A stretch of 64,000 nucleotides of DNA from assembly GCF_019448235.1 (NCBI RefSeq), contig NZ_CP080409.1:1612001-1676000 (forward strand), read 5' to 3'. Shown piece by piece: positions 1 through 37,652 of the stretch; positions within the stretch are counted from its first letter, which is position 1; every line of letters begins with the position of its first letter. Both the position numbers and the translations under genes were made by a program. The stretch is from Nocardioides panacisoli (lineage in GTDB: Bacteria > Actinomycetota > Actinomycetes > Propionibacteriales > Nocardioidaceae). The notes under the pieces were generated by a model. The model was not told where the DNA came from. It did no database searches and saw only the letters and a program-made list of their open reading frames with translations.

Positions 1-1591
1 AGGTCTCCTCCCCCGCACGGTGCACGTCGGTGCCGTACTGCATGGGGTTCCAGCGTTCCGCGAACGGACCCCGCTGCTCGGGGGCGCGACCGGCGCGGAG
101 GACGTACTCCTCCAGCGCACTGAGCAGCGCGTTGGCCGTGGGCGCGGAGTCGGCCAGCGGCAGGTCCTTGAAGGGGCTCGTCTCGCTGGTCGTGTGGGGC
201 AGCCACTTGATCCACTCCAGCTCGCCCGCCCAGTCGCTGTCGGCGAAGGCGACGCTGACGACCTCGTTGGGTGCGTGGAGGCCGAAGAGTTGGACCGCGA
301 GCCCGCGCATCGCATCCGAAGCCGGGCCCGTCGGTCCTGCCACGCCGACCGACCCGACCGCGCGCAGCGACTCCAGCAGCGGGACGCCGTCGACGTAGCG
401 GTAGCGCGCCCGGAGGCGGTCGAGCCGCTCGATGTACTCGGGCAGGCCGTCCTGGGTGTCCTGCTCGGCGATGGAGTTGCGTGAGACGGCACGGGTCGTG
501 CCGAGGCGCAACGCCAAGTAGTTCCAGTGCTCGGGGCGGCGCGTCCACAGCATCGGGCCCAGCCGCATCGCGTGCTCGTAGACCTCCGCGACGGGCGGGA
601 CCTCGTCGTTGCGCGCCTGCTCCTCCTCCGGCTTGGCCCGGAAGAGCGTCTCCTCGAGGTACTCGAACTGCCGCTCGAAGAGCTCGATCTCGTGGTTCTT
701 CTTGTTGGCGGTCTGGGTGCGTTGGTTGATGAAGTTGCCCATCGCCATCATGGGCGTCATGAAGATCAGCAACAGCGCACGCTCGCGGCCGGTGATGGCG
801 TAGATCGCGGCCGCCATGATGATCGGTGCGACGAGCATCGTCCACGGGAAGAGCTTGCCGATCGCCTCGGTCGGCATGCGCGGTGGCGGGTGGGCGATGC
901 CCGGGTAGCGCACGTCGACCCGCGGGCTGCGGTTGAACAGCAGGCCGCCGCCACGTTCGAGGACCGGGTCGTCGACGCCGTCGAAGTCGCGGGCGAGGTA
1001 GAGCACCAGCGTCGTGCCGCCGATGACGAAGGACTTGCCGGGCGCGACGCGGACGCGCTGCACCGGAGCACCGTCGACGAGTACGCCGTTGGCGGAGTTG
1101 AGGTCGACCAGCTCGACCGAACTGCTCACCTCGATGCGGGCGTGGGTCTTGGACACCATCGGGTCGTCGAGCACGATGTCGTTGCCGGGCAGGCGGCCGA
1201 TCGTCGCGTGGCCGGTGCTCAGCGGGAACTCCTGGCCGCGCAACGGACCGTCGGCCGCCAGCAGGACGCCGATCGTGTCCCGGTGGGCGCCCGCGCCCAC
1301 CGGCGCCGAGGCCTCCGTCCGCGGCCCCAGGTTGACCACGGTGGCCGAGAAGCCCGAACCGATCGCGGCCTCGCCGATGTGCACCCCCGGCTCCAGCGGC
1401 TCGAGACGGTCATCGGTCGGCGGCGCCACGGCGAGGGTGAGCACGTCGTCGGCGGCCGCGAGGATCGTGCGGGCCGGGTCCGACTCGGCGATGTGGCGGG
1501 CGACGTCGGCCGCGGTCGCCGTCGAGTCGGCGGTCACGATCACGTCCGTGGGCTCGACCCCGTCACGGTGCAACGTCAGCTTGACCTTCAT
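1..1591 (-). CDS. FHA-domain FtsK/SpoIIIE-type (EssC/EccC-like) protein, N-terminal part only
   Basis: Partial: the ATG is at 1591 and the frame stays open to the left edge, giving about 530 residues of what is normally a 1000-1500 residue protein. Residues 1-75 look like a small ubiquitin-like fold (MKVKLTLHRDG start). An FHA domain at about 105-195 keeps its phosphothreonine-binding signature (TIGR, SKTHARI, NSANG). Two adjacent membrane segments follow at about 247-290, then a soluble region typical of the stretch before the ATPase domains. FHA plus paired membrane helices plus ATPases is the layout of EssC, the type VII secretion motor of Firmicutes; EccC of actinobacteria lacks the FHA. 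The FtsK motor itself lies outside the window, so the ATPase call is inference from this layout and the neighbours. It is the last visible gene of the long operon, 56 bp after the RDD-FHA gene. Confidence 0.72.
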   Translation of the reverse strand, partial: MKVKLTLHRDGVEPTDVIVTADSTATAADVARHIAESDPARTILAAADDVLTLAVAPPTDDRLEPLEPGVHIGEAAIGSGFSATVVNLGPRTEASAPVGAGAHRDTIGVLLAADGPLRGQEFPLSTGHATIGRLPGNDIVLDDPMVSKTHARIEVSSSVELVDLNSANGVLVDGAPVQRVRVAPGKSFVIGGTTLVLYLARDFDGVDDPVLERGGGLLFNRSPRVDVRYPGIAHPPPRMPTEAIGKLFPWTMLVAPIIMAAAIYAITGRERALLLIFMTPMMAMGNFINQRTQTANKKNHEIELFERQFEYLEETLFRAKPEEEQARNDEVPPVAEVYEHAMRLGPMLWTRRPEHWNYLALRLGTTRAVSRNSIAEQDTQDGLPEYIERLDRLRARYRYVDGVPLLESLRAVGSVGVAGPTGPASDAMRGLAVQLFGLHAPNEVVSVAFADSDWAGELEWIKWLPHTTSETSPFKDLPLADSAPTANALLSALEEYVLRAGRAPEQRGPFAERWNPMQYGTDVHRAGEET

Positions 1592-1647
1592 CCCTCACCT
1601 CACCTCGGACCGTGTCTGCGTCAGGCCGGGCCGGTCACGCCGGCCAC

Positions 1648-3030
1648 TCATGTGCGCGCCACCGCAGCGCTCCGGTCGCCGAACCGGATCGTGTCGCCGG
1701 GGACCGCGACCCCCGCCTCGCCGACCGGCAACGACCGCTCCTTGCCGTCGTGGACGATCGACGTCCCGTTGGTCGATCCTTGGTCCACGACCTCCACGCC
1801 GTCCTCGGCCGGGCGCAGCACCAGGTGTGTCTTGGAGACCGACAGCGAGTCGTCGTCGATCGCCACCGTTCGTGCCCCCTCGCGGTCGGCCGGCATCCGC
1901 CCGACCAGCAGTGGCTCGGCGATCTCGATCCGGTCGCCAGTGTCCAGACGCACGAGGAACTCGGCCAACGGCGACGTCGCCGTGCCGTCGTCGCGCCGCG
2001 CCCCCGGTGCCGGTGGCGCGGGTGGCGGGGACGACGCCTGCCCAGCCTCCGGTGCCGGAGGCGCGGGCGACGCCGGGGGCTGCGGGGACGGGACCGACGA
2101 CGGTGCCGTGGGAGGTGCGGCGTCGGTGGGCGCCGCCGGCCGGTCGGACTGGGAGGAGAGGTAGCCACCGATCACCGGGCGTCCCGGTGCGGCGCCGGAG
2201 GTGCCGGCGGGCGGGGTGTCGGACTGCTCCAGCCCCGTCAGGCCCACCCGGGTGCGTCCCTGGGCGCCGTGGGGGCGGGCGACACCGAGGACACCCGCGC
2301 TCGTCCGGCCGGCCGGGCGGTACTCCCCCTCGTGACCGGCCTCGGTGGCCGTCGCGAGCGACGGGAGTGCCTTGGCCTGCGGGGCCGGCGCAGCCGTCAC
2401 CGTCTTGCGGGCGATGCGCATCCGCTTCTTGTCGTACGGGTGCAGGCCGTGCCGGACGTCGACCAGCCACAGCTGGCCGATCACGTCGTGCCAGCCGCGT
2501 CCGCGGCGCTGGGGATCGAAGAGCGGGGACAGCAGGAAGACCAGCGGCCCGACCACCGCGGCCGCCGATCCCCACAGCACCAGCCCGCGCAGTGCGACCC
2601 GCCAGAAGCCCGGCTTGGCGAGGGTCCTGACGTTGACCGCCCGCAGGCCGGTCACGGCCTTGCCGAGGGTGACACCCGACCGCCCCAGGAGGGCCAGCTG
2701 CACGATGACGAAGGCGAGGGTGAGCACGGTCGTGACCGAGGCCATGACCACCGCCAGGATGAAGTCGGGGTGGTTCACGAACCCGTACCAGCTGATGCGT
2801 CCGGCGAGCAGGCTGACCAGCAGCGGCAACGAGAACACCCAGTACGGGACCTGCAGCAGCAGGTAGAGGCCGATGTCCACCGCGGCGGCACCCGCGCGTC
2901 GCCCGAGCGGAGCCGGCAGCAGGCCCAACGCGGCGGCGTACGCCGGGTCGGGGTCGCCGTACTCGTCGAGGCCGTCGACCCGCTCGTCCTCGTCGGGCAA
3001 CTCCCAGATCGGGGTGTGGGGCGAGCTCAT
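1648..3030 (-). CDS. RDD-family membrane protein with C-terminal FHA domain (first copy)
   Basis: 460 residues, ATG start, overlapping the neighbouring RDD-FHA gene by 4 bp. The N-terminal half (about 40-215) is an RDD domain with several hydrophobic segments and the expected G-x-T-L-G-K turn (GVTLGKAVTGL). A long Pro/Ala-rich, probably disordered linker covers about 235-360. The C-terminal FHA domain (about 365-455) has intact LLVGR, SVSKTH and STNGT motifs, so it should bind phosphothreonine. RDD domains are poorly understood membrane modules; in this operon the protein plausibly tethers a phospho-reader to the membrane for the kinase encoded upstream. Nothing suggests an enzyme. The following gene is a paralogue of the same architecture, so this looks like an in-operon duplication. 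Confidence 0.8.
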   Translation of the reverse strand: MSSPHTPIWELPDEDERVDGLDEYGDPDPAYAAALGLLPAPLGRRAGAAAVDIGLYLLLQVPYWVFSLPLLVSLLAGRISWYGFVNHPDFILAVVMASVTTVLTLAFVIVQLALLGRSGVTLGKAVTGLRAVNVRTLAKPGFWRVALRGLVLWGSAAAVVGPLVFLLSPLFDPQRRGRGWHDVIGQLWLVDVRHGLHPYDKKRMRIARKTVTAAPAPQAKALPSLATATEAGHEGEYRPAGRTSAGVLGVARPHGAQGRTRVGLTGLEQSDTPPAGTSGAAPGRPVIGGYLSSQSDRPAAPTDAAPPTAPSSVPSPQPPASPAPPAPEAGQASSPPPAPPAPGARRDDGTATSPLAEFLVRLDTGDRIEIAEPLLVGRMPADREGARTVAIDDDSLSVSKTHLVLRPAEDGVEVVDQGSTNGTSIVHDGKERSLPVGEAGVAVPGDTIRFGDRSAAVART

Positions 3031-4085
3031 CGGTCGACCTCCACGGTGACGGTGAAGGCACCGAACTCGACGACGTCACCCTCACGCAGCGTGGTCCGCG
3101 AGTGGGGCTCGAGTGCGGTGGCGGCGGTGTCCCGGTGCAGGGTGACGCCGTTGGTCGAATGCCAGTCCTCGACCCAGGCCGTGCCGTCCTCGACGCCGAG
3201 CAGTGCGTGGGTCTTGGACATCGTCAACTGGGGGTCGTCCAGTGCCCATGCCGCCGCTCCGGCGACCAGGTCGGGGTCGGGGTCGCGTCCCACGAGGAGG
3301 GGGCCGTCGAGGACGTGCGAGGGACCGGCCGCGGTGGTCAGCCGCCACGCCGGCGAGGGCTGTGCGGGAGACGGAGACGGCGTCGCCGCGACGTCAGGGG
3401 TGACCGTCTGCTCGACCGGCGTGCTCGACTCCGGCGGCGTGCTCGGCTCCGGCGGGGGCGGCACCACGCCGGGCGGCGGACCGACCACCATCCCGGTCGG
3501 CGGTGTCGCCTTTGCCGCGGGCGTCACCGTCTCCTCCTGTGGCCGACCGCCCGTGGTCGGTGGCGGGGGCGGGGCCGAGACCGGGGCCGCCGGCGGCGCG
3601 GACGGGTTGTACGCCGCCGCCCCGGTCGCCGGGTCGGCGGGCGCCACGGCCGGCGCGCGGTCACCGGTCGCGACGACCACGGAACGGACCGCCTTGTCGT
3701 GCCAGCCCTGCCGGCGGAGGTCCCGGGCCGTGATGACGACGTTCGCGAGTCCGGGGACCCAGCACGCGGCGAAGAGCAACCCGAACACGAAGTCCCGGCC
3801 GAGGGCGCGGCCGACCCCGACCGGCGCGCCGGTGTCCTGGTCCTGCACCCGCAACCCCAGCACCTGCTTGCCGATGCTCTGCCCACGACGACCCACCCGG
3901 ACGACCTGGTTGTAGAACGAGAACGCGACCGCGAGGACGACCAGCGCGACTCCGAGGAGTGCCGGCAGTCCGTCGGCGAGGAGCAGGAGCGCGTAGCCGC
4001 CACCGAGCAGGGGCGCGACGACCACACCGTCCACCAGTCGCGCAGCGAGGCGCGTCCCGATGCCGACCTGTTGCTGTCCGGTCAT
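3027..4085 (-). CDS. RDD-family membrane protein with C-terminal FHA domain (second copy)
   Basis: 352 residues. The start is set at the ATG at 4085 (MTGQQQVGIG) because GGGAGGTG lies just upstream; an in-frame extension to 4184 would run through the end of the transglutaminase gene. RDD domain at about 8-135 with hydrophobic segments and the GQSIGKQVLGLR turn, Pro/Ala/Thr-rich linker, and an FHA domain at about 255-345 with LLVGRD, TMSKTH and STNGV intact. Same architecture as the adjacent 460-residue protein. Likely role: membrane-anchored phosphothreonine reader within the kinase/phosphatase operon (inference). The gap to the transglutaminase gene is 13 bp. Confidence 0.8.
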   Translation of the reverse strand: MTGQQQVGIGTRLAARLVDGVVVAPLLGGGYALLLLADGLPALLGVALVVLAVAFSFYNQVVRVGRRGQSIGKQVLGLRVQDQDTGAPVGVGRALGRDFVFGLLFAACWVPGLANVVITARDLRRQGWHDKAVRSVVVATGDRAPAVAPADPATGAAAYNPSAPPAAPVSAPPPPPTTGGRPQEETVTPAAKATPPTGMVVGPPPGVVPPPPEPSTPPESSTPVEQTVTPDVAATPSPSPAQPSPAWRLTTAAGPSHVLDGPLLVGRDPDPDLVAGAAAWALDDPQLTMSKTHALLGVEDGTAWVEDWHSTNGVTLHRDTAATALEPHSRTTLREGDVVEFGAFTVTVEVDR

Positions 4086-4098
4086 GCCCGCACCTCCC

Positions 4099-6387
4099 TC
4101 AGTCCCGACCGCCACGACGGGCCAGCCCACCGAGGCGGCCCACGACGGCCGACGTCCACCGCCGCGGAGCCCGCCGGACGGCACGTCCGGCCTCGCGCCA
4201 CGGCAACGACGCCGGTGAGAGTACCGCCCACCAGCGCCGCCAGCGCGGCACCTCGCGACGCATCCGCTTCAACGCCGTCCCGACGTCCTCCCAGTACGCC
4301 GCGACCTCCTCCTCGCTCAACGTGCCGGGACCGAAGGTGTGCCGGTCCGCGGTCACGGCGAGGTCGGTCGGCGCGCTCTCGCCGAAGCGCCCCACGAGCA
4401 CCGCGCAGTTCTCACTGCGGGTGTGGCCGACCGGGATCGTCGTGCCCAGGTCCTTCGCGCGGTCGGTGATCTCGCGCCACCCGCCGCTGAGCCGCACCAG
4501 CGGGTCGGCCGCCTTGCGGCGGCGCCGACGGCGGATCCGCTTGATCAGCACGATCAGCCACAGCGGTGAGAGGAGGAGCAGCACCTGCAGCAGGATCCAG
4601 AGGTAGCCCAGCAGGTCGAACAGCCAGTCCCAGAGCTCGTCAGCGAGGTCCTTGCCGGCGCCTTCGGGCGGCACGCCCTGGACGTCCTCGGGCTCCTCGG
4701 GGATGACCGGCGGCTGGACCACGTAGGGCTGCGGCACCGGGTTGTTCTTCTCGTCCAGCGGCGGGGGCGTGCGGTCCTCGGGCGGCGTGGGGTCGAACGG
4801 CACCCAGCCGTGGTCGGCGAAGGCGATCTCGACCCAGGCCGCGATGTCGTCGCCGGTCACGGTGCCGGTGCCGCTGATCTCCTCGAACCCGAGCGCGACC
4901 CGGGCCGGGAGGCCGAGGCGTTGCGCGGCGTACGCCATCGCGGAGGCGTACTGCTCGTCGTTGCCGACCATCCGCTTCTCGTCCTGCACCAGGTCGGCCA
5001 ACCGCTTGGTGCCGTGGCCGGAGGCGGAGAAGCCGAAGCGCTCGGGGTCCTCCCCGTCGTTGAAGTAGCCGTTGTCGCGGAAGCCCTGTTCGAGCGCCAC
5101 GGCCCGTTGGAAGTCCGAGGACGCCCCGGACTGCCCCACCCACTGCTGCGCGAGCTGGTCCAGCTTCTCGATCGGTGGCGAGGAGGACTCCGGCACCAGG
5201 ACGGAGCGGTCGGCGTCACGCGACAGCAGCGCGTTTGTGCGCTCGGGCCGGGGCGCCCAGTCGACGAGGAACTCGTCCCCGGGTCGCACCTCCCCCGACA
5301 TCGCCACGCCGCCCGTGGCGGTGTTGAGCAGCAGCTCACGCGGCACGTCGGGCGCGGCGTCGCTGTCCAGCGTGGCGGCCGTCGCGGTGCCGACCGAAGG
5401 CACCCAGGTGCCGGTGTACTCCTCGGAGGTGACCCGCAGGGAGCCACCGCCCTGGGCGCTGGGAGCCGGCCGGTAGGCGCTGGTGCCGCTGGCGAGGTCG
5501 GAGGTGGTGACGTTCCAGACGAGGCCGTCGAAGCTGTCCATCGTGGCGAGCCGTACGTGCGGGTCACCCGCGGGGACGTTGTCGAACCGGAACAGGACGT
5601 CGGTCTTGTGGGCCTTGTAGTAATGGCGGTAGCGGGCGAGCGGGCTCTTGAGGTCGAGCTCGGCCAGGGGCGGCTCCACGTGGTCGCGCAGCACCTCCCG
5701 CTCAGGGCCCGCGGTGGCCGTGGCCAGCCCCCACCCGGCGAGGCCGGCGACCGTGACCACGGCGGCACCCATCGCGACGCGGCGTACCCACGAGGTGCGC
5801 AACGTCCGCAGCGACCGCCAACGGTTCCACAGCACCAGCACGACGACCAGCAGGAGGCCGCGCGCCAGCGGCAGCGCGGCCTCGCTGCTGCCGAACGCTG
5901 CTGCCGCCAGGAACGCGGCCGCGACCGTGAGGTGGGCGAGTCCCGGGAACCGCGTCCGCCACAGGAAGGTGGTCGCCAGGACGCCCGCGCCCAGCGCGAT
6001 GACGAAGGGCACCACGAGTTCGCCGCGATCGACGCCCAGCGGCAGGGGCAGCGTGATCACGCTGCGCCAGGACTCGACGAGCCCGACGACCACCGTCCGC
6101 GCGGCATCGGGGGTCGGTACGACGCCGCCGACGGTCTGGCTCGGGGCGGCCGCAGCCGGCGCCACGACCAGGTAGCCGAGCGCCACCAGCAGACCGGTGA
6201 GCACCGGTCCCAACCGGTAGCGCTCGGCCACCAGTGTGGTGCCCACTGCCAGCAGCAGGCCGACCGCGACGGTGACCATCCACGTGCGGTCGGCCCAGAC
6301 GTCGGTGAGCGGCGAGACCGCGATCGCGAGCGCGAGCGCCAGGCACGCGGTGTCGGCGACGCGCAGCCGGAGGTCGGCGCGGCTCAT
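4099..6387 (-). CDS. transglutaminase-fold membrane protein with degenerate catalytic site (DUF3488/TgpA-type)
   Basis: 762 residues, ATG start overlapping the DUF58 stop (ATGA). Six or so hydrophobic segments at the N-terminus (to about 225), an extracytoplasmic transglutaminase-like core (about 250-540), one further membrane segment (about 580-610) and a cytoplasmic tail, as in TgpA/DUF3488 proteins. The core is recognisable (GLPARVALGF, AAWVEIAF, GWVPFDPTP) but two members of the Cys-His-Asp triad are missing: the Cys position is Asp477 in GNDEQYASAM, and the His position before AWVE is Ala516; Asp532 remains. It is therefore predicted not to be a thiol transglutaminase or protease. It corresponds to the transglutaminase member of the bifidobacterial PFNA cluster; a structural or binding role toward the Ig/FN3 surface protein is inference. 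Confidence 0.85.
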   Translation of the reverse strand: MSRADLRLRVADTACLALALAIAVSPLTDVWADRTWMVTVAVGLLLAVGTTLVAERYRLGPVLTGLLVALGYLVVAPAAAAPSQTVGGVVPTPDAARTVVVGLVESWRSVITLPLPLGVDRGELVVPFVIALGAGVLATTFLWRTRFPGLAHLTVAAAFLAAAAFGSSEAALPLARGLLLVVVLVLWNRWRSLRTLRTSWVRRVAMGAAVVTVAGLAGWGLATATAGPEREVLRDHVEPPLAELDLKSPLARYRHYYKAHKTDVLFRFDNVPAGDPHVRLATMDSFDGLVWNVTTSDLASGTSAYRPAPSAQGGGSLRVTSEEYTGTWVPSVGTATAATLDSDAAPDVPRELLLNTATGGVAMSGEVRPGDEFLVDWAPRPERTNALLSRDADRSVLVPESSSPPIEKLDQLAQQWVGQSGASSDFQRAVALEQGFRDNGYFNDGEDPERFGFSASGHGTKRLADLVQDEKRMVGNDEQYASAMAYAAQRLGLPARVALGFEEISGTGTVTGDDIAAWVEIAFADHGWVPFDPTPPEDRTPPPLDEKNNPVPQPYVVQPPVIPEEPEDVQGVPPEGAGKDLADELWDWLFDLLGYLWILLQVLLLLSPLWLIVLIKRIRRRRRRKAADPLVRLSGGWREITDRAKDLGTTIPVGHTRSENCAVLVGRFGESAPTDLAVTADRHTFGPGTLSEEEVAAYWEDVGTALKRMRREVPRWRRWWAVLSPASLPWREAGRAVRRAPRRWTSAVVGRLGGLARRGGRD

Positions 6388-7673
6388 CCCGCCAGCCTCC
6401 GCATCAGCAGTGGCAGCTCGTCGAGTTCACCGAGCATGGTGGTGTCGAGGTCAGCCATGGTGCGCAGCAGCACCTCGGAGCCGAGGGTGGCCCGCACGAC
6501 GATCGTGCGCACGTCCAGCGGCAGCTGCCGGCGGGCGCGGCGCAGATCGGCGTCGGGGACCAGCGAGCCGACGACGAAGATGGCGACGCTGGCGCCGGAG
6601 ACCTCGCCGCCCAACCGGCGGACCGTGTCGACCAGGCGGGGCGCCTGACCCTCGTAGTCGACGCCGGAGAGCTGGTCGAGGAGGACCACGGGGTGCTCGG
6701 AACGCAGGTGGGCGGTGGAGGTCATCTCCGAGAGCGTGTGTCCGTCGCGGAGGGTCTGTGCCCCGAGCGAGCCGGCCACGGAGACGGCGAGCTCGAACTC
6801 CTCATCCGAGACGTAGTCGTCGAGCCGGGTGCTCAGCACGACCATCAGGTGCGCCCGTCGGGTCTCCTCGAACTGCCGCACCATGAGCGTGCCGGTGCGC
6901 GCGCTGGTCTTCCAGTGGATGAAGCGCCGGTCGTCGCCGGGGACGTACTCCCGCAGCGCGTGGAACGCGACGTCGTGGTCGGAGATCTTGCGGACCGTGG
7001 TGCCCTCGAGGTCGCGGATGAAGCCGGAGGAGGAGCTGCCGATCGGCACCGTGCGGGGATGCACGTGCAACACGTCGGGCTCGGTGAGGTCCTGGTCGCG
7101 GCGCAGCAGCCAGAGCGGATCGGCCCGCACGGCCCGCACCGGGCCGAGGTCGAGGACGGCGCGCCGCTGGGTGGGGATGGCGAAGAGTTCCTCGTGGCGT
7201 TCCTCCCCGTGCAGCGAGGGCAGGTCGAAGTCGGCCGTGGTGGGGCCGACCGGCAGCTGGATGGTCAGCGGCAGGATCCGGCGGCGGGAGGTGTTGGTGA
7301 CCACGAGGCTGCCCGTGGCCCGCTCTCCCACGACCACGCGGTTGCGACTGAGGTCGAGCTCGGCGGCGACGTGGTGGCCGCCGAGGACGAAGGCGACGCC
7401 CACGAGCAGCACGACCCCCAGGAAGCAGGCAACGAGCCAGAGCTCGCTCCAGTGCAGCCGGAGTCCGGCCCAGAGGCATGCGACCGCGCAGCACGCCAGG
7501 ACCCACGCTGCGGGCGAGACCACCGACGTGACCGGGGCGACCGCCGCCCGCGGCCGCTCGGTGCGGTCAGCGAGCCACGCACGGCCGTCGAGCATCCGCC
7601 CGACGGCGCGCCGCCGCAGGCCCGTGAGGCGTCGCCCCCACGAGCCGCGCTGCTCCGCGACCGTCGACGTCAT
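6384..7673 (-). CDS. DUF58 domain-containing membrane protein
   Basis: 429 residues. Start is the ATG at 7673, which overlaps the MoxR stop as ATGA; the open frame extends further upstream only as a shadow of the MoxR gene. Basic N-terminus, two close membrane segments (about 50-105), then a soluble domain carrying the DUF58 signature (RRFIHWKTSARTGTLMVRQF) and a von Willebrand A-like fold. DUF58 proteins are habitually encoded beside MoxR ATPases and transglutaminase-fold proteins, as here, and are thought to form MoxR-assisted complexes in the membrane. The tight MoxR-DUF58-transglutaminase trio supports one complex. Confidence 0.88.
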   Translation of the reverse strand: MTSTVAEQRGSWGRRLTGLRRRAVGRMLDGRAWLADRTERPRAAVAPVTSVVSPAAWVLACCAVACLWAGLRLHWSELWLVACFLGVVLLVGVAFVLGGHHVAAELDLSRNRVVVGERATGSLVVTNTSRRRILPLTIQLPVGPTTADFDLPSLHGEERHEELFAIPTQRRAVLDLGPVRAVRADPLWLLRRDQDLTEPDVLHVHPRTVPIGSSSSGFIRDLEGTTVRKISDHDVAFHALREYVPGDDRRFIHWKTSARTGTLMVRQFEETRRAHLMVVLSTRLDDYVSDEEFELAVSVAGSLGAQTLRDGHTLSEMTSTAHLRSEHPVVLLDQLSGVDYEGQAPRLVDTVRRLGGEVSGASVAIFVVGSLVPDADLRRARRQLPLDVRTIVVRATLGSEVLLRTMADLDTTMLGELDELPLLMRRLAG

Positions 7674-8641: not shown

Positions 8642-8669
8642 TGCTGCTCCTCGGTCATGGAAGGGGTCG

Positions 8670-11600: not shown

Positions 11601-14600
11601 GTCGGCGGCGAGCGGCGCATGGTCCGGCGCGTCCTTGCGGGCAGTGACGGTCAGCAGCGCCGAGGACGACGTGCCGAGGCCGTCGGTGATCGAGTAGAGC
11701 GCGCCCTTGCTGACCTCGGACTGCTCCCCCAGCGCCGGGACCTTCATCTCGACGAAGTCGTCGACGATGCGGGCGTCCACGCCCTCGGGTGCACTGAACT
11801 CGTCCTCCTCCAGGATCAGCGGGTCGCCGTCGGGGTCGGAGTCGTTCTGCGTGACGGGGTACTGGATGGTGAGGCCGGGCTTGACCAGCAGCCGGTCGTC
11901 GAGCGCGGCCGGCGCCTGGTTGACCGCGCTGCGGGCCGCCACGCCGATGCGGACGTCGGCGGTGCCCGACGCACCGTAGGGGTCGCTGACGCGCACCTTG
12001 AACTGGTCGGTGCCGGTGTTCTTCTCTCCCTCGAAGGGCTCGTACTCGAACCAGCCGGCGCCGGCACGGACGATCCGGCCGAACCGTGGCGGCTCCTCCA
12101 GCCCCGTGTAGACCACGGGGTCGCCGTCGGGGTCGGCACCGAAGATGTCCACGGGCACCCGGATGCGCTGTCCCGAGACCGTGCGGTCCTCGATGGGCGG
12201 CGCCTCGGGCGCACGGTTGTTGTCCGGGTCGTCGGGCTTGATGTTGAGCACCAGCCGCGCGTCGGCGCGCGCCTGCTCGCGGTCGCGTACGCCGTACCCG
12301 ACCTGCATCTGGGTGGTGCCGTCGTCGGGCACCTTGACCCGGATGCCGTCGCCGGTGGCGACGATCGGGACGGTGCCGTCGGCGACCCACTCGGTGTGGG
12401 TGTCGACGTCGAAGAGGTCTTGTTGGTAGACCGAGAGCGAGTCGCCGTCGGGGTCCTCGTCGTTGTCGAGCACCGGGACGGTGACGATCGTGCCGGCACG
12501 GACGGTGACGACGTCCTCCCGCGCAACCGGTCGACGGTTCTTCAGGTTGTCCGACAGCGCGACCGACACCTGACCGCTCACCTGGTCGCTCTCGCCGTCG
12601 GAGACGAGGTACTCGAACTCGGGACGCTCGTCCTGCAGGTCGCCGGTGACCTCCACGCGCACGAAGCGCTTGTTGATCAGCGAGGCGGTCACGGAGTCCT
12701 GCCACTCCGGGGGCACCCGCACGCCCTGCACCACCATGACGTCGCCGTCGGGGTCCACGTCGTTGGCCAGGACGTCGACCAGCACGGTGCCGTCGGACTG
12801 CACGGCGGCGACGTCGCGGGTGGCCACCGGGGGCCGGTTGTTGCCGCTGCGGGGCAGCACGTCGACCCGGATGACCTCGGTGTCCGACGGCTGCCCGTTG
12901 GAGCTGGAGGCCTCGTACTCGAGGTAGTAGGTGCCGTGCCGGTCGGACTCGAAGGTGGCCGTGCCGCGCTCGGTGTCCTTGGCGATCGACGCCGCGCCAC
13001 CGGCCACGACCTGCACGCGCGGCAGGGTGAGCTGGCCCCCGAGGGGGTCGGTGTCGTTCTCCAGCGGCTCGAGCAGGATCGAGGAGCCGACCGGGCCGGA
13101 GAACCGGTCGGCGACCACCTCCGGCCGTGCCTTCTCCGGGTCGACCACGGTCAGCTCGACGCTGCCCTCGGCCGTCGCCTCACCGCCACGGACGACGAAG
13201 TCGATCGTCTTGCGTCCCCCGCCGGTGCCGTCGTCGAGGAAGTCCACGGTGCCGTCGGGCCGGAACCCGACCTCGCCTCCCTCGCTGCTCGCCTCGGCGA
13301 GGACCAGGGAGTCACCCTCGGGGTCGATCCAGCCCGGCAGCACGTTGGTCGTCGCCTCGTGGCCCGAGGCCACGGTGAGCTCGTTCTTCTGGCCCTCGAT
13401 CAGCGCTGGCTTCTTGTCCACGTCCTCCCCGAACACCTGGATCGTGACCTTCGCCTCCGAGGGCGGGTTGGCCGGCCGACCGTCGGAGATCTCGTAGGTG
13501 AAGCTGACCGAGCCCTCCACGTTCGGTGCGAGTCGGGCCTGCACCTGGGTGCCGCCGCCGGTGATGCTGAAGCTCGCCTGCCGGGTCGATCCCGGCGCCT
13601 TGGTGAGGGTGAGGACGTCACCGTCGGGGTCGATGTCGTTGAGCGTGACCGGCAGCACCACGGTCGCGCCCGGCCGACCACCGAAGGTGTCGTCGACCGC
13701 CTGGGGAGGCTTGTTGCGCTTCGAGCTCGACTTCTCGTCGGAGGCCTCGGCCACCTGGGGGTCGCGGGCGTTGGGGTTGACCGAGGGCCAGTTGTCCACC
13801 AGCGTCAGGCCGTTCTGCTCCACCAGCCACGCACCGCCGGTGGCGACGTCGTTGATGACCACCACGTCGCGGTTGCTGCGGAAGACCAGCTCGCCGTCGC
13901 GGCTCAACGGCTCGATGCGGTCGGTGAACGGCTCGTCGTCGCCGCACTGCCGCTGGTAGTTGTCCTCGCCCGGCGCGAGCCAGGCCGCGTGGACGCACCC
14001 GGCGACGACGGCCGGCGCCGCGGCGGGGCCACCGGCGGGCACTGCCGTGCGCTCCTCGAGTCCGCCGCCGGACAGCTCGCCCTGCCACAGCGCCTCGTCG
14101 GTGGCGACCTGCACGGTGGAGGAGGCCGGACCGACCTGCTGCAGCACCGCGCCGTCGCCGGCCACGGGGACCGGCTCCTCGCCGGCACGCAGCAGGGTGC
14201 CCTCCTGCAGGGCGACCGGGACCTCGCCGACCGCGGTGAGCGCCACGTCGTCGGTGAACTCGGTGCCGAAGTCGTGGACGTCCTCCTCCAGCGGGACCCC
14301 CGAGACGTCGAGGCGGTACGCCGTCACGGTGCCGGCGGGTCGGTCCGCCACGAGCGCCGTGCCGCGCTCGGTGACCACGAGCTGGCCGCGGGGGGCCACC
14401 TCGAAGTCCGGCGGGGTGTTCTCGGTGAAGGAGTCGAGCTGGTCGGCGCGCCGGACCCACACGCTGCCGGTCTCCCGATCGGTGATCGCGACCGTGCCGC
14501 CGCCGGCCCGGGCGAGGAAGGACTCGGGGAGATCGACGGGCTCGGCGGTGCCGGTGACCGGGTCGGCGAGCCGCAGCGCGCGCTCGGCGTTGCCTCCACC

Positions 14601-14900
14601 GTCGTCGTAGACCTGCACGCTGGCGCCCTGCTGGAAGATGTCGTCGCTGGTCGACGAGGTCAGGATGCCCATGTCGAGCTCCTTGACCTGCGAGTTCAGC
14701 CGACCCATCATCTGCAGGTTCTGGTTGCTGACCCACACGCCGCCGTCGTTGAGGTCGACGTCGTTGATCGGCGAACCGTCGTGGTTGATCGCGAGGACGG
14801 TCAGCACACCGGCGACCAGCGTGATCGCGAGCGCCTGGGCCGTGCGGCGGCGCGGGTGGCGACGGGTGGCGCGGCCGGGCAGCCGCGGCCGCCACCTCAC
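8670..14900 (-). CDS. giant membrane-anchored Ig-like/FN3 repeat surface protein
   Basis: 2076 residues. Start is the GTG at 14900, overlapping the upstream stop as GTGA; the frame continues to 15452 only as a shadow. A basic Arg-rich cytoplasmic tail (1-20) precedes one membrane segment (about 21-38), so the bulk is outside the cell. Residues 40-395 resemble a beta-propeller-like region with no repeat I can name. About 397-1485 holds ten or eleven repeats of roughly 100 residues of the Ig-like/cadherin type with the recurring VDVLANDVDPDGD-like motif, which is typical of Ca2+-binding loops. Four fibronectin type III domains follow (about 1487-1870), then a Cys-rich C-terminal domain (about 1870-2076). 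An acidic run (EEEDEEEQE) lies near 1390. It is the FN3 member of the PFNA-type set; adhesion or cell-surface sensing is inference. No LPXTG motif, signal cleavage site or enzymatic domain was seen. Confidence 0.88.
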   Translation of the reverse strand: MRWRPRLPGRATRRHPRRRTAQALAITLVAGVLTVLAINHDGSPINDVDLNDGGVWVSNQNLQMMGRLNSQVKELDMGILTSSTSDDIFQQGASVQVYDDGGGNAERALRLADPVTGTAEPVDLPESFLARAGGGTVAITDRETGSVWVRRADQLDSFTENTPPDFEVAPRGQLVVTERGTALVADRPAGTVTAYRLDVSGVPLEEDVHDFGTEFTDDVALTAVGEVPVALQEGTLLRAGEEPVPVAGDGAVLQQVGPASSTVQVATDEALWQGELSGGGLEERTAVPAGGPAAAPAVVAGCVHAAWLAPGEDNYQRQCGDDEPFTDRIEPLSRDGELVFRSNRDVVVINDVATGGAWLVEQNGLTLVDNWPSVNPNARDPQVAEASDEKSSSKRNKPPQAVDDTFGGRPGATVVLPVTLNDIDPDGDVLTLTKAPGSTRQASFSITGGGTQVQARLAPNVEGSVSFTYEISDGRPANPPSEAKVTIQVFGEDVDKKPALIEGQKNELTVASGHEATTNVLPGWIDPEGDSLVLAEASSEGGEVGFRPDGTVDFLDDGTGGGRKTIDFVVRGGEATAEGSVELTVVDPEKARPEVVADRFSGPVGSSILLEPLENDTDPLGGQLTLPRVQVVAGGAASIAKDTERGTATFESDRHGTYYLEYEASSSNGQPSDTEVIRVDVLPRSGNNRPPVATRDVAAVQSDGTVLVDVLANDVDPDGDVMVVQGVRVPPEWQDSVTASLINKRFVRVEVTGDLQDERPEFEYLVSDGESDQVSGQVSVALSDNLKNRRPVAREDVVTVRAGTIVTVPVLDNDEDPDGDSLSVYQQDLFDVDTHTEWVADGTVPIVATGDGIRVKVPDDGTTQMQVGYGVRDREQARADARLVLNIKPDDPDNNRAPEAPPIEDRTVSGQRIRVPVDIFGADPDGDPVVYTGLEEPPRFGRIVRAGAGWFEYEPFEGEKNTGTDQFKVRVSDPYGASGTADVRIGVAARSAVNQAPAALDDRLLVKPGLTIQYPVTQNDSDPDGDPLILEEDEFSAPEGVDARIVDDFVEMKVPALGEQSEVSKGALYSITDGLGTSSSALLTVTARKDAPDHAPLAADDVVTTDQMAGKTAGETVDVDVLANDGDLDGSRDDLELEAVETDGSSIEGRQLQVELRPEARTVPYKITDATGQSSFGFVYVSGTENTPPQLNTAAVPVEVVAGEEETIALEDVVVVRDGRTPKVARTDRITTTNGDTRTEGLTELLFRAPPAYHGPASVTLDVIDGEDLNDPTGLTAQVTIPINVLPASNVAPEVRSTEVVVYAGGEPRTVDLDRLATDVNEDDLDFEVEGARDGVEAGIEDGVLVVSAEDGAPSGELDLEVRASDGDADPQVGTVGVTVIGVDPDEEEDEEEQESAPPMQLVELRVADGVAGEPVTVDTAEAVAFDPYPGQSKTVTFTSTGTASGSTITLTPDGAGEIVVTYRLDDGSGDAAREVQGRVVVVVADVPAAPLPPTAVEGGPDSVQLTWRAPDDQGSPIQHYLVRRVGSGDTTRCVATQCTIEGLDAGAEYRFTVAAVNAIGEGEPSAASGPVTPDTVPGTMVAPVLSESDYEDRNGKLRLSWTKPQNEGSDITSYELESQPATSRKSVGAGQTQVTWQGLQNGTSYRFRVRAVNDRGEGVWSPWSDTQTPFTRPSQMSPPTLEAAGNEDGNGEGYLAVRWAEPQPPANGHDPVTSYEVQVFRDGALYRTKPATATSTDFTVPNGSSYTATVRATNRAGWSDWSGQSAAQITYDQASAPRNITKVNDCDNCGASTSAYRGVVRFQAPADNGGYPVVAYDFRTTDGVTGRWTVGAGETTVQRRVNFTSIGAGKDVTITPVTRPPGRGEIAGAAARGGNFSPYAKPFPPSISWIQGYRMVGATWSCDGNGRPVQDFNAVYTGAQSGQSVNGARCGQRHTESPIEGGDSRCFKSSIRTAGGTSTVNEHGCRRADDPTVDVSFVSGANAPVSDCARPCYNVRVSAAGFLQGSWTMTAQTGSGPGSCGPGNFGGSRKSMGIGSDGRGATTTSWFISGSCSGTRVTVTIQGRHANWSGSRNVP

Positions 14901-15607
14901 GGCGCCGTCTCCTCGTCCAGGAGCGGGAGGTGCTCGGGGCGGACGATGCGGGCGGTGACGGCGTACTCCACCAGCCGGGCGCGGCGCTGGGTGGCGTTGT
15001 TGCCGCGGCCACCGCGCAGCCCCTGCACGCCGGCACGGTCGAACTTGTCGCAGACGTTGTCGAGCTTGCGGTTGAACCGGGTGATCGGCCAGCCGAGCCG
15101 GTCGGCGGCCTGGGCGTTGGTCGGCAGGTCGGTCGGCCCGGTGCCGCTGCGCCGCAACGCGTTCTCGCACAGCGAGAGCACCATCAGGAACTGGCTGGAG
15201 GTGAGGTTGACGCTGCCCAGCGTCATGTCCGTGTTGTCGAGGCCGTCGGGACCGGCGGACTGCGGGACGGCGTTGAAGGTGGGCACGTCGCAGCTCACGT
15301 TGACCTCGTAGGTGGTCTGGCCCGCGGTGAAGAGCAACGCCACCGAGGGCAGCACGATCGGCACCCGGGCGCCCGGGGCGAGGACGGCGTGCAGCGTGCC
15401 GGCCTCCCCGCTGACCGTGAGCGAGAGCCGGGTCCCGACGTTGGCGACCCACCAGAAGCCGTCGGCGAAGGAGAGCTCGGCCAGCTGGCGGTGCAGGTAG
15501 GCGTTGTCGTCGACGACGAGGTCGGCGTCGCGGCCGATGGTGAAGTTGCGGTCGCCGCTGAGCGGAAACTCCTCGCCGCAGTACTCAACGGTGAGTTCGG
15601 CCGTCAA
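14897..15607 (-). CDS. degenerate FHA-domain protein with conserved C-terminal domain
   Basis: 236 residues if translation begins at TTG 15607, which has GGAAAGG about 9 nt upstream and starts directly on the first FHA strand; an ATG at 15658 would add 17 residues of non-conserved look and lacks a ribosome site. The N-terminal half is FHA-like (FTIGRDADLVVDD) but the usual Ser-x-x-His is replaced by YLHRQLAEL and the Asn-Gly turn by NVGTRLSL, so phosphothreonine binding is doubtful. The C-terminal half (about 140-225), with SSQFLMVLSLCENALRR and an ITRFNRKLDNVCDKF stretch, resembles a winged-helix or helical interaction domain. It sits between the kinase and the giant surface protein, overlapping the latter by 4 bp, so it may be a non-canonical adaptor between them. 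Confidence 0.72.
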   Translation of the reverse strand: MTAELTVEYCGEEFPLSGDRNFTIGRDADLVVDDNAYLHRQLAELSFADGFWWVANVGTRLSLTVSGEAGTLHAVLAPGARVPIVLPSVALLFTAGQTTYEVNVSCDVPTFNAVPQSAGPDGLDNTDMTLGSVNLTSSQFLMVLSLCENALRRSGTGPTDLPTNAQAADRLGWPITRFNRKLDNVCDKFDRAGVQGLRGGRGNNATQRRARLVEYAVTARIVRPEHLPLLDEETAP

Positions 15608-15688
15608 GGTCTGTCGCCTTTCCCGAGTGATGGTCGCGGGCATCGTACCCATGTTCAACGTCGTTGATCCCCCGAAGTGACGAACCGG

Positions 15689-17230
15689 TCAGGCGCCCTG
15701 TTGCGGCACGACGATGCACTCGGTCAGCGCCTCGGACACGGCACCGCTGCGGACCACGGTGATCGAGATGCAGGCCTGGTCTCCCGGACTGACCGGGACG
15801 CCCACGCGGTTGCGCTCTCCGCGGTACTGCTCCGACATGGTCGCGATCGTCTCGCCGGCCCGCACCTGGAAGGTGTCGCCGACCTCCGGGGAGGGGTTGC
15901 GCCAGGTGAAGACCGCACGGCCCTCGCGCACGCGGTGCTCCAGGTCGACCGGTGCGAGGGGGCCGCCGACCACCACGTCGACCGACGGCGGAGCGGCCAC
16001 GTTCCCGGGGTCCTCGGGGTCCGGCCCGGTGCCCAGTGCGAGAGCCGCCCCCACGCCGACGACGACCGCGAGCAGGAGCCCGACGCCCAGCAGCAGCCGG
16101 GAGCGGCGCAGGTGGGGTCGGGTGTCCTCGGACGGTGCGGCCACGCCCGGCCCGACCTCCGGCGCCCCCACCGGGGTGGGCGGTCGCTGGTGGATCGTGT
16201 CCGGGGCGGGCTCACGGCGGGGCGGGAGAGCAGTCCGGTCATCGACCTGGGCGACCTCGCGCGGCCGCAGCAGCGTGCCCTGCCGGGCGATCTCCTCGGG
16301 GACGATGACCTGTACCGGCTTGACCAGCGTGCGCTCGTCGGCCACCGCGGTCCCTGCGTCGCCCTCCGGCGAGGCGTCCATGACCTCGAGCCGGGTGGGT
16401 GCGAGCTGGAGCTCGATCTGCACCTCCTGCAGCAGCCGCGCGAACGCCATCGCCGAGGAGGGCCGGTCCGCCATCCGGCGCGACAGGGCCCGGGCCAGCA
16501 GGTCGTTGAGAGCCTCCGGCACGTCGGGACGCAGGACCCGGCTCGGCACCTTGTTCTCGATCCGGTGGATCAGCGTCGCCGTGTCGTTGGCGGCGCCGGG
16601 AACCTCGAACGGCGAGCGTCCGGCGAGCAGCGAGTAGACCGTCGCCGCGAGCGCGTAGACGTCGCTGCGGACGTCGAGGGGGGCGTCCTCCCCCAGGACC
16701 TCGGGCGGGGACCAGGGCACCGACATGCCGCGGCTGGCCTCGGTGTCCTCGCTGGCCACGGCCGCGATGCCGAAGTCGGTCAGCAACGGCGCCCCGAACG
16801 GGCTGGTCAGGATGTTGTGCGGCTTGATGTCGCGGTGCAGGATCCCGACGCGGTGGGCGGTCTCGACGGCGCTGGCGATCTTGACGCCGATGTCGAGGAC
16901 CTCGGGTACCGGGATGCGCTCGTGGCGGTAGCGCTGGGCGATGTGGGGCGGCGGGCAGTACTCCATCACCAGGAACGCCCGGCCGTCGGTGCTGACGTCG
17001 GCCTGGTGGATGGAGACGATCGAGGGGTGCCCCGACAACTGGGCCATCACGTTGGCCTCGGCGTGGAACTGCTCGCGGCCGACCTGGGTCGCCGACTCAC
17101 GCAGCACCTTCACCGCGACACGGCGCGCCGGCAGCTCCTGCTGGTAGAGGTGGACGTCGGCGAACCCACCGGTGCCGATGGGTTCGACGAAGGAGAAGCC
17201 GGGGATCTGTGGAGGGGAGCCAGACGTCAC
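15689..17230 (-). CDS. membrane-anchored eukaryotic-like Ser/Thr protein kinase
   Basis: 513 residues, GTG start overlapping the upstream FHA gene stop (GTGA). The catalytic domain (12-275) is complete: Gly-rich loop GTGGFADVH (19-27), Lys41 in VAVKVL, catalytic HRDIKPHN (Asp134), DFG at 152-154 and a PPE in the P+1 loop. A linker of about 110 residues leads to one membrane segment (about 385-409) and an extracellular C-terminal domain of about 100 residues with a possible FN3/Ig-like sandwich; no PASTA repeats. It corresponds to Pkb2 of the PFNA cluster. Likely substrates include itself and proteins that then recruit the FHA products of the same operon. An active kinase is expected from the residues seen. 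Confidence 0.93.
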   Translation of the reverse strand: MTSGSPPQIPGFSFVEPIGTGGFADVHLYQQELPARRVAVKVLRESATQVGREQFHAEANVMAQLSGHPSIVSIHQADVSTDGRAFLVMEYCPPPHIAQRYRHERIPVPEVLDIGVKIASAVETAHRVGILHRDIKPHNILTSPFGAPLLTDFGIAAVASEDTEASRGMSVPWSPPEVLGEDAPLDVRSDVYALAATVYSLLAGRSPFEVPGAANDTATLIHRIENKVPSRVLRPDVPEALNDLLARALSRRMADRPSSAMAFARLLQEVQIELQLAPTRLEVMDASPEGDAGTAVADERTLVKPVQVIVPEEIARQGTLLRPREVAQVDDRTALPPRREPAPDTIHQRPPTPVGAPEVGPGVAAPSEDTRPHLRRSRLLLGVGLLLAVVVGVGAALALGTGPDPEDPGNVAAPPSVDVVVGGPLAPVDLEHRVREGRAVFTWRNPSPEVGDTFQVRAGETIATMSEQYRGERNRVGVPVSPGDQACISITVVRSGAVSEALTECIVVPQQGA

Positions 17231-18297
17231 GTATCCGCTCCCCGGACCGCGAGCGTCGCGGTGACGTCGTCGGAGAGCCCCAGGACGCAGCCGTCGCCGA
17301 GGACCGTCGGCTCGTCACGCGTCAGTCGCTGTGGCTCGCGTCCGGGCCGGGTCAGCGTGGTGCCGTTGGTCGAGCGATCGATGGCGACCACGGCGTCGTC
17401 CTCCACGGCGACCTCCAGGTGGGTGCCTGACACGTAGGGGTCGTCGACGACGACCAGTCGCGGCAGCTGGGTGCTGCTCATCCGGTCGGCCCGGGGAGAG
17501 CGGCCGATGACCACGGGCTGGGTCAGCTCCACCGCCTCGCCGTCGCTCATCATCAGGGTCGCGCTCGCGCGCGGACCCACGGCACCCGGACCGCTGGGCG
17601 CGCTCTGCTCACGGAGCTCCTGCAACTGCGCAGCGGTGATGGTCCGGCCGTCGTGGTCACCGGCGGGCTGCTCGGGCGCCGGCGGAGCAGGTGGCGGCTC
17701 GGGTGCTCGCTGTCCCTGGATGGTCGCGCCGACCACCTCGTCGAAGGAGTCCTCCTCGGACAGGGTGAACTCGGGGTCCGGCTCGGCGGGCGGGGCAGGC
17801 GCTGGCGCAGGGCCCGGTGCGGCCGCGGCGTCCGGCGCCGCGAGCGGTGGCACGGGTGCTGCCACTGCGTCGGCCGACGTCGCTGGTGCCCCGGCGTGCC
17901 AGGCGACGCGGGCGGCGAGCACGACGCCCCCGTCCAGCGGCAGCGTCGTGTCCTCCACGGCGGATTCCGCGGCCACGACGACGAAGTCGGTATCGCCGGC
18001 CGCGACCCGGTGCTCACGCCAGGTGGCCACGTCGCCGCCCGACCACGCCTCCTCGCCCCGCTCGATCCGGTACTGCCCGCGGACCATGACGACGTACTCC
18101 TCGCCGTCGACGACCACGGCGGCGAACTCGGGGAGCCGCGCCACGTCGCCACCGGACAGCGCCGACAGGACGCCCAGCGGCGTGGCGGCCCCCTCCGCGA
18201 GCGCCGCGAGGTCGGCCGCACGCTCGCCGGCAGCCATCACGACCGCCCGCGGCCCCACGGCGACGGCACGCTCCCCCGGCGCGTACCAGGCGTTCAT
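17227..18297 (-). CDS. FHA-domain protein
   Basis: 356 residues. The ATG at 18297 overlaps the PP2C stop (ATGA); the longer frame upstream is a shadow. Residues 1-110 form a compact beta-rich domain I cannot name (NAWYAPGERAVAVGPRAV start), followed by an Ala/Pro-rich linker (about 110-240) and a C-terminal FHA domain (about 255-350) with VVIGRSP, VSGTHLEV and STNGTTL intact. It lies exactly between phosphatase and kinase, each junction a 4-bp overlap, so co-translation in fixed ratio is likely. No membrane segment; probably a cytoplasmic phosphothreonine adaptor for the kinase (inference). Confidence 0.85.
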   Translation of the reverse strand: MNAWYAPGERAVAVGPRAVVMAAGERAADLAALAEGAATPLGVLSALSGGDVARLPEFAAVVVDGEEYVVMVRGQYRIERGEEAWSGGDVATWREHRVAAGDTDFVVVAAESAVEDTTLPLDGGVVLAARVAWHAGAPATSADAVAAPVPPLAAPDAAAAPGPAPAPAPPAEPDPEFTLSEEDSFDEVVGATIQGQRAPEPPPAPPAPEQPAGDHDGRTITAAQLQELREQSAPSGPGAVGPRASATLMMSDGEAVELTQPVVIGRSPRADRMSSTQLPRLVVVDDPYVSGTHLEVAVEDDAVVAIDRSTNGTTLTRPGREPQRLTRDEPTVLGDGCVLGLSDDVTATLAVRGADT

Positions 18298-19154
18298 CGG
18301 CTCCTCCGTCCGCTCGGGATGGTGTCCTCGGCCACGGCCACCGGGGACAGCGAGTCCAGGGTGTCCTCGACCACGGCCCGGTCCCCCACCGAGACCACGT
18401 CGACGATCACCACGGTGACGTTGTCGTGCCCGCCCGCCTCGACGGCGCGGCGCACCAGCAGGTCGACCGCGGCCGCCGACCCCGGCTCGTCGCCCAGGAC
18501 CTGCGAGATCGAGTGCTCGCTGAGCTCCCCGGTCAGTCCGTCGCTGCACAGCAGCAGCCGGGCGCCGGCCTCGACCGGGACCAGGGAGAACTCGGGCCCG
18601 GTGCCGCCGGTGCCGCCCAGCGCACGAGTGATCACGTGGCGCTCGGGGTGGACCCGTGCCTCCTCCTCGGTGATCTCCCCGTCGTCGACCATCTCCTGCA
18701 CGATCGAGTGGTCCGTGGTGATCCGCACCAGGGTGCCCCGGCGCCACTGGTAGGCGCGGGAGTCGCCCTCGTGGGCGATGGCCCAGTAGCCCCGTCCGGA
18801 CTGCTCGACGTACGCCGCCGCGAGCACCGTGGAGCCCGGCGAGACCCGTTCGGTGGCGAGCGACCGGATCCGGACGCGGGCGTTCGCAATGCAGTTCTCG
18901 AGGTCCGTGGGCGCGACGTGGTCACGACCGACCAGCGCCTCGAACTCCTCCACGACGATGGCTGAGGCGATGTCGCCCCGCTCGTAGCCGCCCATGCCGT
19001 CGGCGACGACGAAGACCGGCGGACCAGCGAGGAAGGAGTCCTCGTTGACGGCGCGCACCTGGCCGACGTGGGTGTCGGCGGAGTACTGCAACTGCGTCGT
19101 CGTCCCCGTCGCGGGTGGGGACCATCGCACGTCGGACAGTTCGTCAGCCGTCAC
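18294..19154 (-). CDS. PP2C-family Ser/Thr protein phosphatase
   Basis: 286 residues. Start taken as GTG 19154 because GGAAGGA sits 9 nt upstream; longer in-frame starts would cross the promoter region. All PP2C metal-binding motifs are present: VRAVNEDSFL, FVVADGMGGY, GDSRAYQW, CSDGLTGELSE and GGHDNVTVV, so it should be an active Mn2+/Mg2+-dependent phosphatase reversing the action of the kinase two genes downstream. Soluble, no membrane segment, unlike mycobacterial PstP. It is the first gene of the long operon and corresponds to the PP2C (PrpC) member of the PFNA cluster. Confidence 0.94.
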   Translation of the reverse strand: MTADELSDVRWSPPATGTTTQLQYSADTHVGQVRAVNEDSFLAGPPVFVVADGMGGYERGDIASAIVVEEFEALVGRDHVAPTDLENCIANARVRIRSLATERVSPGSTVLAAAYVEQSGRGYWAIAHEGDSRAYQWRRGTLVRITTDHSIVQEMVDDGEITEEEARVHPERHVITRALGGTGGTGPEFSLVPVEAGARLLLCSDGLTGELSEHSISQVLGDEPGSAAAVDLLVRRAVEAGGHDNVTVVIVDVVSVGDRAVVEDTLDSLSPVAVAEDTIPSGRRSR

Positions 19155-19266: not shown

Positions 19267-19566
19267 TCACGCGCCGACGGGCGTGGACTCGGCACGGACG
19301 AACCGGTGCAACCGGGTCAGGTGGAGCAGGCGCCGGATCGGGGCCGAGGCTCCCCGGAGCCTGACCTGCCGTCCCGCGCGGCAGCTGGCCGCCGCGAGCA
19401 TCCGCAGGGCGGTCGCGTCCACGGCGGTCACGTCCGCGACGTCCAGCACGGCCCGGTCGCCGTACCGGTCCAGGTGCCGGTGGACCTCCCCGCGGATCGC
19501 GGCGGTCGAGCGTCCCGTCAGGTCGCCCGACAACCGCAGCGTGGTGCCGTCAGCCATGATGTCCAT
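19267..19566 (-). CDS. STAS-domain protein (anti-sigma-factor-antagonist-like)
   Basis: 99 residues; the ATG at 19566 follows GAGAGGGACAC. The single STAS domain has the expected N-terminal LSGDLTG strand and the AVLDVADVTAVDATALRML core. In SpoIIAA/RsbV relatives this core reads D-S-S-G-L with a phosphorylatable Ser; here it is D-A-T-A-L, so the Ser is gone and only a Thr is left. It may therefore be a non-phosphorylatable or Thr-controlled antagonist, or a protein-interaction STAS domain with another role. It is transcribed toward the PP2C operon with a 112-bp gap and is divergent from the cobalamin adenosyltransferase gene. No partner anti-sigma kinase is visible nearby. Confidence 0.8.
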   Translation of the reverse strand: MDIMADGTTLRLSGDLTGRSTAAIRGEVHRHLDRYGDRAVLDVADVTAVDATALRMLAAASCRAGRQVRLRGASAPIRRLLHLTRLHRFVRAESTPVGA

Positions 19567-19705
19567 GTGTCCCTCTCGGTGGGGGCACACCCCGAGAACT
19601 GGGTGCTTCCACCCCTCCAGACGCACGACGGCCCGGTTTGGTTGCATCCCGGCGGCAACGAGATCCTCGGGAGCACCCGCGGACCGGCACGAGACAGGAG
19701 CAACA

Positions 19706-37589: not shown

Positions 37590-37652
37590 GGTGTCCTCTC
37601 ATGACGCCGGGTCGCCGCACGGGGTGTGGGCGTGAACCGGAATCGACGTGCC

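Follow-up and report, generated by a model that had tools for sequence, protein, structure and literature searches.

We have analyzed an operon at the left end of a 64,000-nucleotide stretch of the Nocardioides panacisoli genome (the window, positions 1612001-1676000 of contig NZ_CP080409.1, the genome being a single contig of 3.57 Mb). It joins genes of the PFNA type to a motor gene of the EssC/EccC type found in type VII secretion systems (T7SS). Calling of open reading frames (ORFs) reproduced the eleven contiguous minus-strand genes of an earlier description made without database searches (the sequence-only reading), with 4-bp overlaps at six junctions. With the start codons chosen here, the genes at the other junctions are separated by 13, 28, 30 and 56 bp. 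The earlier range was 13-81 bp; its lower limit stands, and 81 bp is obtained only if a later start is taken for the gene at 14897-15658. Pfam agreed with the earlier domain assignments for every gene except this one, a degenerate FHA protein with no match at E 0.01. The motor gene runs out of the window, and we used the genome stretch to its left (L005) to complete it and to see the genes downstream. The features are summarized in Table 1.

Table 1. Features of the operon and its continuation (positions in the window unless prefixed L005)
Feature	Position	Strand	Evidence or comment
PP2C-type phosphatase, 286 aa (eraser)	18294-19154	-	PF13672 3.9e-9; GTG start chosen by ribosome site
Soluble FHA protein, 356 aa (reader)	17227-18297	-	PF00498
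Ser/Thr kinase, 513 aa (writer)	15689-17230	-	PF00069 4.7e-39; HRD and DFG present
Kinase juxtamembrane linker, residues 268-376, threonine motifs	16103-16429	-	
Degenerate FHA and conserved C-terminal domain, 253 residues	14897-15658	-	marker of motor-linked subtype
Ig/cadherin/FN3 giant, 2076 aa	8670-14900	-	Pfam: Big_9 8 stretches, fn3 3 stretches
MoxR AAA+ ATPase, 323 aa	7670-8641	-	PF07726 (AAA_3) 1.5e-64
DUF58 membrane protein, 429 aa	6384-7673	-	PF01882
TgpA-like membrane protein, transglutaminase fold, 762 aa	4099-6387	-	PF01841 (Transglut_core) 1.5e-13
RDD1: RDD membrane protein, C-terminal FHA, 352 aa	3027-4085	-	PF06271, PF00498
RDD2: RDD membrane protein, C-terminal FHA, 460 aa	1648-3030	-	PF06271, PF00498
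Motor, EssC/EccC-type, first 530 of 1500 aa	2-1591	-	rest left of window in L005
Motor ubiquitin-like domain, residues 1-92	1316-1591	-	
Motor FHA domain, residues 115-198	998-1249	-	PF16697/PF00498; GarA/OdhI relatives
WXG100 protein, 98 aa	L005:14691-14987	same as motor	PF06013 1.4e-11

The completed motor has three ATPase modules with FtsK/SpoIIIE domains. The sequence-only reading had suggested looking left of the window for such domains and for WXG100 genes, and both are present there. NCBIfam EssC/EccC models score 531, 332 and 301 bits on the motor, against 58 bits for FtsK; the value of 531 lies below the EssC equivalog cut-off of 778 bits. Its best relatives in the PDB are EccC and YukB. 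The locus thus has a multi-ATPase membrane motor of the EccC/EssC type together with a WXG100-family gene, two defining components of a T7SS. A second FHA domain at the N-terminus was considered and rejected on a profile and the predicted model. By profile, predicted model and structural neighbors the first domain resembles the ubiquitin-like domains of EccD, and a ubiquitin-like fold is seen in the model. No FHA chain was among the structural-neighbor matches listed, an absence that carries no weight alone. Pfam scans with single members of this domain gave weak and scattered matches (YukD from 2 of 40 members, OTU1_UBXL from 4 of 40), and for the window's own domain the top match was a chalcone synthase domain (0.00088).

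On the same strand the motor is followed by genes for the WXG100 protein, a 99-aa protein that reached no WXG100 model in Pfam or NCBIfam, and proteins of 402, 214 and 204 aa (D402, D214 and D204), with more genes beyond. Residues 1-275 of D402 are conserved and the remainder is variable, with a hydrophobic stretch at 198-249; its profile gave no usable match in the PDB. From its appearance we infer that D402 is a polymorphic T7SS substrate. The downstream genes probably form a polymorphic-effector cassette, with a chaperone or immunity role possible for D204 and D214. A family-5 solute-binding protein and a neighboring gene (L005:7036-9676) flank the motor module, and this pair also accompanies it at loci of Nocardioides, Microbacterium and G433, though not always on the same side.

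The residues of the writer, the eraser and the readers are intact. The kinase, which has a single predicted membrane helix (residues 376-404), keeps the HRD Asp and DFG in 75 of 76 aligned rows. The Arg, Ser and His of the FHA domain are present in all rows of RDD1 (33/33) and of the soluble FHA protein (55/55), in 94, 93 and 93 of 94 rows of RDD2, and in 93, 93 and 94 of 108 rows of the motor. The protein encoded between the kinase and the Ig/FN3 giant has lost the canonical Ser and His, with Arg and N..LHR invariant in 57 of 57 rows. A search of the PDB with its profile gave no usable match, and a helix-turn-helix in its C-terminal domain is a guess. We refer to it below as the marker.

Kinases of this subtype contain copies of a threonine motif, [DE]x(0-1)TxΦR (Φ, hydrophobic), located for the most part C-terminal to the catalytic domain. 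There are 93 in 67 kinases, compared with 15.3 in shuffled sequences. Kinases with a marker within 3 kb contain 78 motifs in 43 proteins (shuffle mean 5.3, maximum 11), and 34 of the 43 have one. The 26 kinases without a nearby marker, a few of which may have one beyond the available flank, contain 9 motifs (shuffle 3.0, maximum 8), and 7 of them have one. The linker of the window kinase carries mostly variants with K or P, for example DERTLVKP and QGTLLRP.

The transglutaminase of the sequence-only reading was borne out as a fold, but not as a catalyst. None of 75 rows has a Cys at the presumed nucleophile column or up to two columns from it (one row being gapped there), and 28 of the 75 have His at the presumed catalytic position. 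With the nucleophile absent, cross-linking was ruled out as a mechanism, and the PFNA 'transglutaminase' is predicted to be non-enzymatic. Its TgpA_N match scores below the family cut-off. In the Ig/FN3 giant, hydropathy places a membrane anchor near the N-terminus, at residues 19-41.

The PFNA cluster consists of pkb2, fn3, aaa-atp, duf58 and tgm, and some species also have prpC and fha. We examined nine genomes of the Bifidobacteriaceae (f50), eight of them in full. A 16S primer sequence matched 8 of 15 genomes tested with at most two mismatches, all of them from this family; one of the nine (G463) was unmatched. MoxR with adjacent DUF58 is found in all nine genomes. Kinase, FN3, MoxR, DUF58 and transglutaminase fold occur in order in 8 of 8, followed in four by PP2C-like and FHA genes. 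In one of them (G438) Pfam finds kinase, Ig plus two fn3, AAA_3, DUF58, TgpA_N/Transglut_core and FHA; the PP2C-like protein has no Pfam family at E 0.01 and is matched only by a profile built here. These five genes recur in the window with like architectures and in unchanged order, in agreement with the earlier assignment of its core to PFNA. MoxR is 51-58% identical, and FN3 28% over 1249-1892 aa (three genomes). The window differs in having the marker between the kinase and FN3, two RDD-FHA proteins, the motor and WXG100 cassettes.

The recurrence of this neighborhood was examined at 80 loci with 57-81% identity, from Nocardioides, Microbacterium, Agrococcus, Agromyces and others, with neighboring genes identified by phmmer. 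An RDD-FHA gene (RDD2) precedes the motor in 78 of the 80. All 54 loci with at least 5 kb of downstream sequence have a WXG-type gene there, and 47 of these have D402; two or more D402 genes occur at 16 of the 80. In Salinibacterium (L052) the window's order FN3-MoxR-DUF58-TG-RDD-motor-WXG-D402 is kept, TG being the transglutaminase-fold gene. In Agrococcus and much of Microbacterium the motor is preceded by TG-RDD, PP2C, FHA, kinase and marker, while some genera, Nocardioides among them, have a motor module separate from the core. The gene order, which the sequence-only reading had proposed to look for elsewhere, is conserved between actinobacterial families. Since the same genes recur as neighbors in many families, the gene set of the operon goes beyond chance.

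We also measured co-occurrence over whole genomes. In a sample of 197 genomes of the class, ten have a strong motor (at least 790 bits), and all ten have the marker (>140 bits) and a PFNA-type MoxR of at least 408 bits. Within the genus, motor and marker are both found in 4 of 12 genomes and neither in the other 8. A sample of 149 genomes from another order (PFNA-type MoxR taken as at least 380 bits) has 40 with a strong motor, 62 with MoxR and 33 with both, a Fisher odds ratio of 13. Permutation within families gives a mean of 26.5 co-occurrences, compared with the 33 observed (P = 0.0002). Motor and MoxR lie within 15 kb in 22 of the 33, in nine families of that order. The core is thus present in other families, which does not bear out the published restriction of PFNA to bifidobacteria (PMC10688814) or the published lack of orthologues elsewhere (PMC6803598).

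In a tree of 104 motor rows the window motor pairs with that of Nocardioides glacieisoli (support 0.999). The clade containing the core-linked motors has 75 of the 104 rows (support 0.997). Core genes were found in the available flank of 36 of 75 motors inside the clade and 3 of 29 outside, the lengths of the flanks being different. The core and the motor module of the window have different nearest relatives. The core is nearest to that of G092, of the same genus (MoxR 77%, marker 62%, DUF58 59%), with kinase and PP2C slightly nearer to a second own-genus cluster (L233); the motor of G092, joined to its own core, is 50% identical to that of the window. The motor module is nearest to those of N. 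glacieisoli and G433 (motor 81%, the first WXG protein 82-90%, D204 62-63%), and in both of these it is separate from the core. The window is by these identities a mosaic of core and motor modules, which suggests that the two have been joined repeatedly. Within the genus a genome may contain two PFNA clusters, of which only one has the marker (L233 in G045, L234 in G176). Other PFNA clusters (L242, L244 and L245 in G117, G094 and G213) end in an RDD-FHA-like gene and an EssC-like frame of 1007-1164 aa, perhaps another motor subtype.

T7SSb comprises EssC/YukB, EsxA, EsaB/YukD, EssB and EsaA, and T7SSa (ESX) comprises EccB, EccC, EccD and MycP. The window shares with T7SSb an EssC-type motor having cytoplasmic N-terminal domains, and WXG100. 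EssB and EsaA had no Pfam match among the scanned proteins, a genome-wide search for them not having been made. According to PMC4925161 the phosphothreonine residues are missing from both FHA domains of EssC, whereas the window motor has one ubiquitin-like domain and one FHA with those residues. It shares with T7SSa the EccC-type ATPase, and the EccD ubiquitin-like domains are structurally near its N-terminus. Unlike T7SSa, the operon has no EccB. The only EccB-like frame lies 1.5 Mb away (C1:3134427-3135449), so an ESX-4-like T7SSa is perhaps present in the same genome; an EccB-like gene was found in 3 of 10 strong-motor genomes.

Another related system is T7SSd, described from Olsenella and Bifidobacterium (Garrett, Higginson and Palmer 2024, PMC11217815). 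Its ATPase is of the EssC type and bears an FHA domain with the phosphothreonine residues; a kinase, WXG100 and a large protein with Ig-like domains accompany it, and a ubiquitin-like protein is not encoded separately. The locus studied here shares these features, its Ig protein being a counterpart, not necessarily an orthologue, of TsdI. MoxR, DUF58, a transglutaminase fold, RDD and a phosphatase are absent from the five core components listed for T7SSd, and the terms 'moxr', 'fibronectin', 'rdd', 'duf58' and 'transglutaminase' do not occur in the paper.

We consider that the operon probably encodes a T7SS variant controlled by threonine phosphorylation, in which control and envelope functions fall to the PFNA module; on the best reading of the sequences it lies outside the T7SSd-like motors sampled here. 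Several observations weigh against this. A core gene is found upstream at only 24 of 63 nearest-relative loci with at least 8 kb of upstream sequence. MoxR occurs without a strong motor in 29 of the 62 MoxR genomes of the other order, and the motor without MoxR in 7 of 40; of the 33 with both, the two are far apart in 4 and on different contigs in 7. In the class sample 5 of 15 marker genomes lack a strong motor (3 of the 5 have a motor at 385-414 bits). Among 20 genomes with a separate motor module the marker is elsewhere in 16 and missing in 4, all Nocardioides. These four and one further genome (five searched) have a PFNA-type MoxR of 416-429 bits, and in the four, kinase, FHA, FN3, MoxR, DUF58 and transglutaminase fold lie together (L235, L237-L239). 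Two motors that fall outside the clade also have core-like genes nearby (L157, and L160 at a distance of about 7 kb). The Bifidobacteriaceae have PFNA and no strong motor in any of the nine genomes. In two of the nine (G474 and G524) a T7SSd-like locus, with a kinase and motor of its own, lies 31 kb from MoxR, and in G474 this locus also encodes a 1798-aa protein with Ig-like matches; PFNA as part of T7SSd in this family was ruled out, the loci being separate. The linker motif was picked after viewing 45 linkers, and in 22 unseen kinases 13 motifs were found where 4.2 were expected, the largest of 200 shuffles also giving 13. It is enriched in no component besides the kinase, and no phospho-motif common to all components was found.

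The MoxR-only genomes, the nine Bifidobacteriaceae, and the motor modules that stand alone in Nocardioides and relatives favor the main rival, that a PFNA envelope-maintenance module and a T7SS at the 3' end are independent systems sharing transcription and not a machine. We regard this as unlikely, given the contiguity in nine families with the within-family association, the tracking of the motor-linked subtype by the marker and linker motifs, and the phosphothreonine residues kept in the motor's own FHA. Of the combined system envisaged in the sequence-only reading, then, the contiguity holds, yet the modules are separate in many genomes. That the operon is simply T7SSd with more of its neighbors noted would account for the likenesses to that system, and seems improbable. 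The one T7SSd-like Bifidobacteriaceae row, a label of our own, falls outside the motor clade in a tree without Olsenella TsdC, and this motor is 28% identical to that of the window. Two T7SSd-like motors gave no match to the ubiquitin-like profile (E 0.88), so a fused domain is unsupported as a general answer to the missing ubiquitin-like subunit of T7SSd. The Ig protein of the G474 locus is not matched by the FN3 profile. A DNA translocase of the FtsK kind with incidental WXG100-like genes, to which the FtsK/SpoIIIE domains might point, is very improbable given the EssC/EccC scores, the three ATPase modules and the constancy of the downstream WXG-type genes.

For a T7SS under phosphorylation control we infer all interactions, gating and secretion from sequence. 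The membrane kinase would sense an envelope cue and phosphorylate threonines, those of its own juxtamembrane linker first, and the PP2C would remove these marks. They would be read by the FHA domains of the two RDD proteins, the soluble FHA protein and the motor, so that phosphorylation would gather the motor at a membrane site. Its fused ubiquitin-like domain would replace the EccD domain or the YukD/EsaB of other T7SS. MoxR and DUF58 could remodel or insert the membrane complex, with the Cys-less transglutaminase-fold protein as a scaffold or ligand-binder and the Ig/FN3 giant spanning the wall. The motor would then export WXG100-type proteins and the polymorphic effector from the downstream cassettes.

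If this is correct, it links T7SS variants with the bifidobacterial PFNA operon, whose literatures seem to have been without contact so far, and it provides a phosphorylation route for T7SS control, in which threonines of the kinase linker are read by FHA domains including that of the motor. It would also provide a T7SS motor with a predicted fused ubiquitin-like domain. A broader and more tentative proposal, which we hold as possible rather than probable, is a distinct T7SS type across Actinomycetes, combining the PFNA module with a motor of the EssC type into which the ubiquitin-like subunit has been absorbed; bifidobacterial PFNA would be the motor-free branch of this machinery for export and envelope functions under phosphorylation control. 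The bifidobacterial operon is currently studied as a system of communication with host cytokines, and the presence of the core in environmental actinobacteria calls into question whether it originated in dialogue with human immunity. Passages of PMC10688814, PMC6803598 and PMC8430577 mention no secretion system, and a search of the open-licence literature found no paper tying PFNA to one.

A scan for promoters and terminators upstream of the PP2C gene found none. A minus-strand ORF at 19267-19725, 112 bp upstream of that gene, looks like a STAS protein. Elsewhere in the window there is an L31 ribosomal-protein leader at 37603-37646 on the minus strand, and a tRNA at 46140-46212 on the plus strand.

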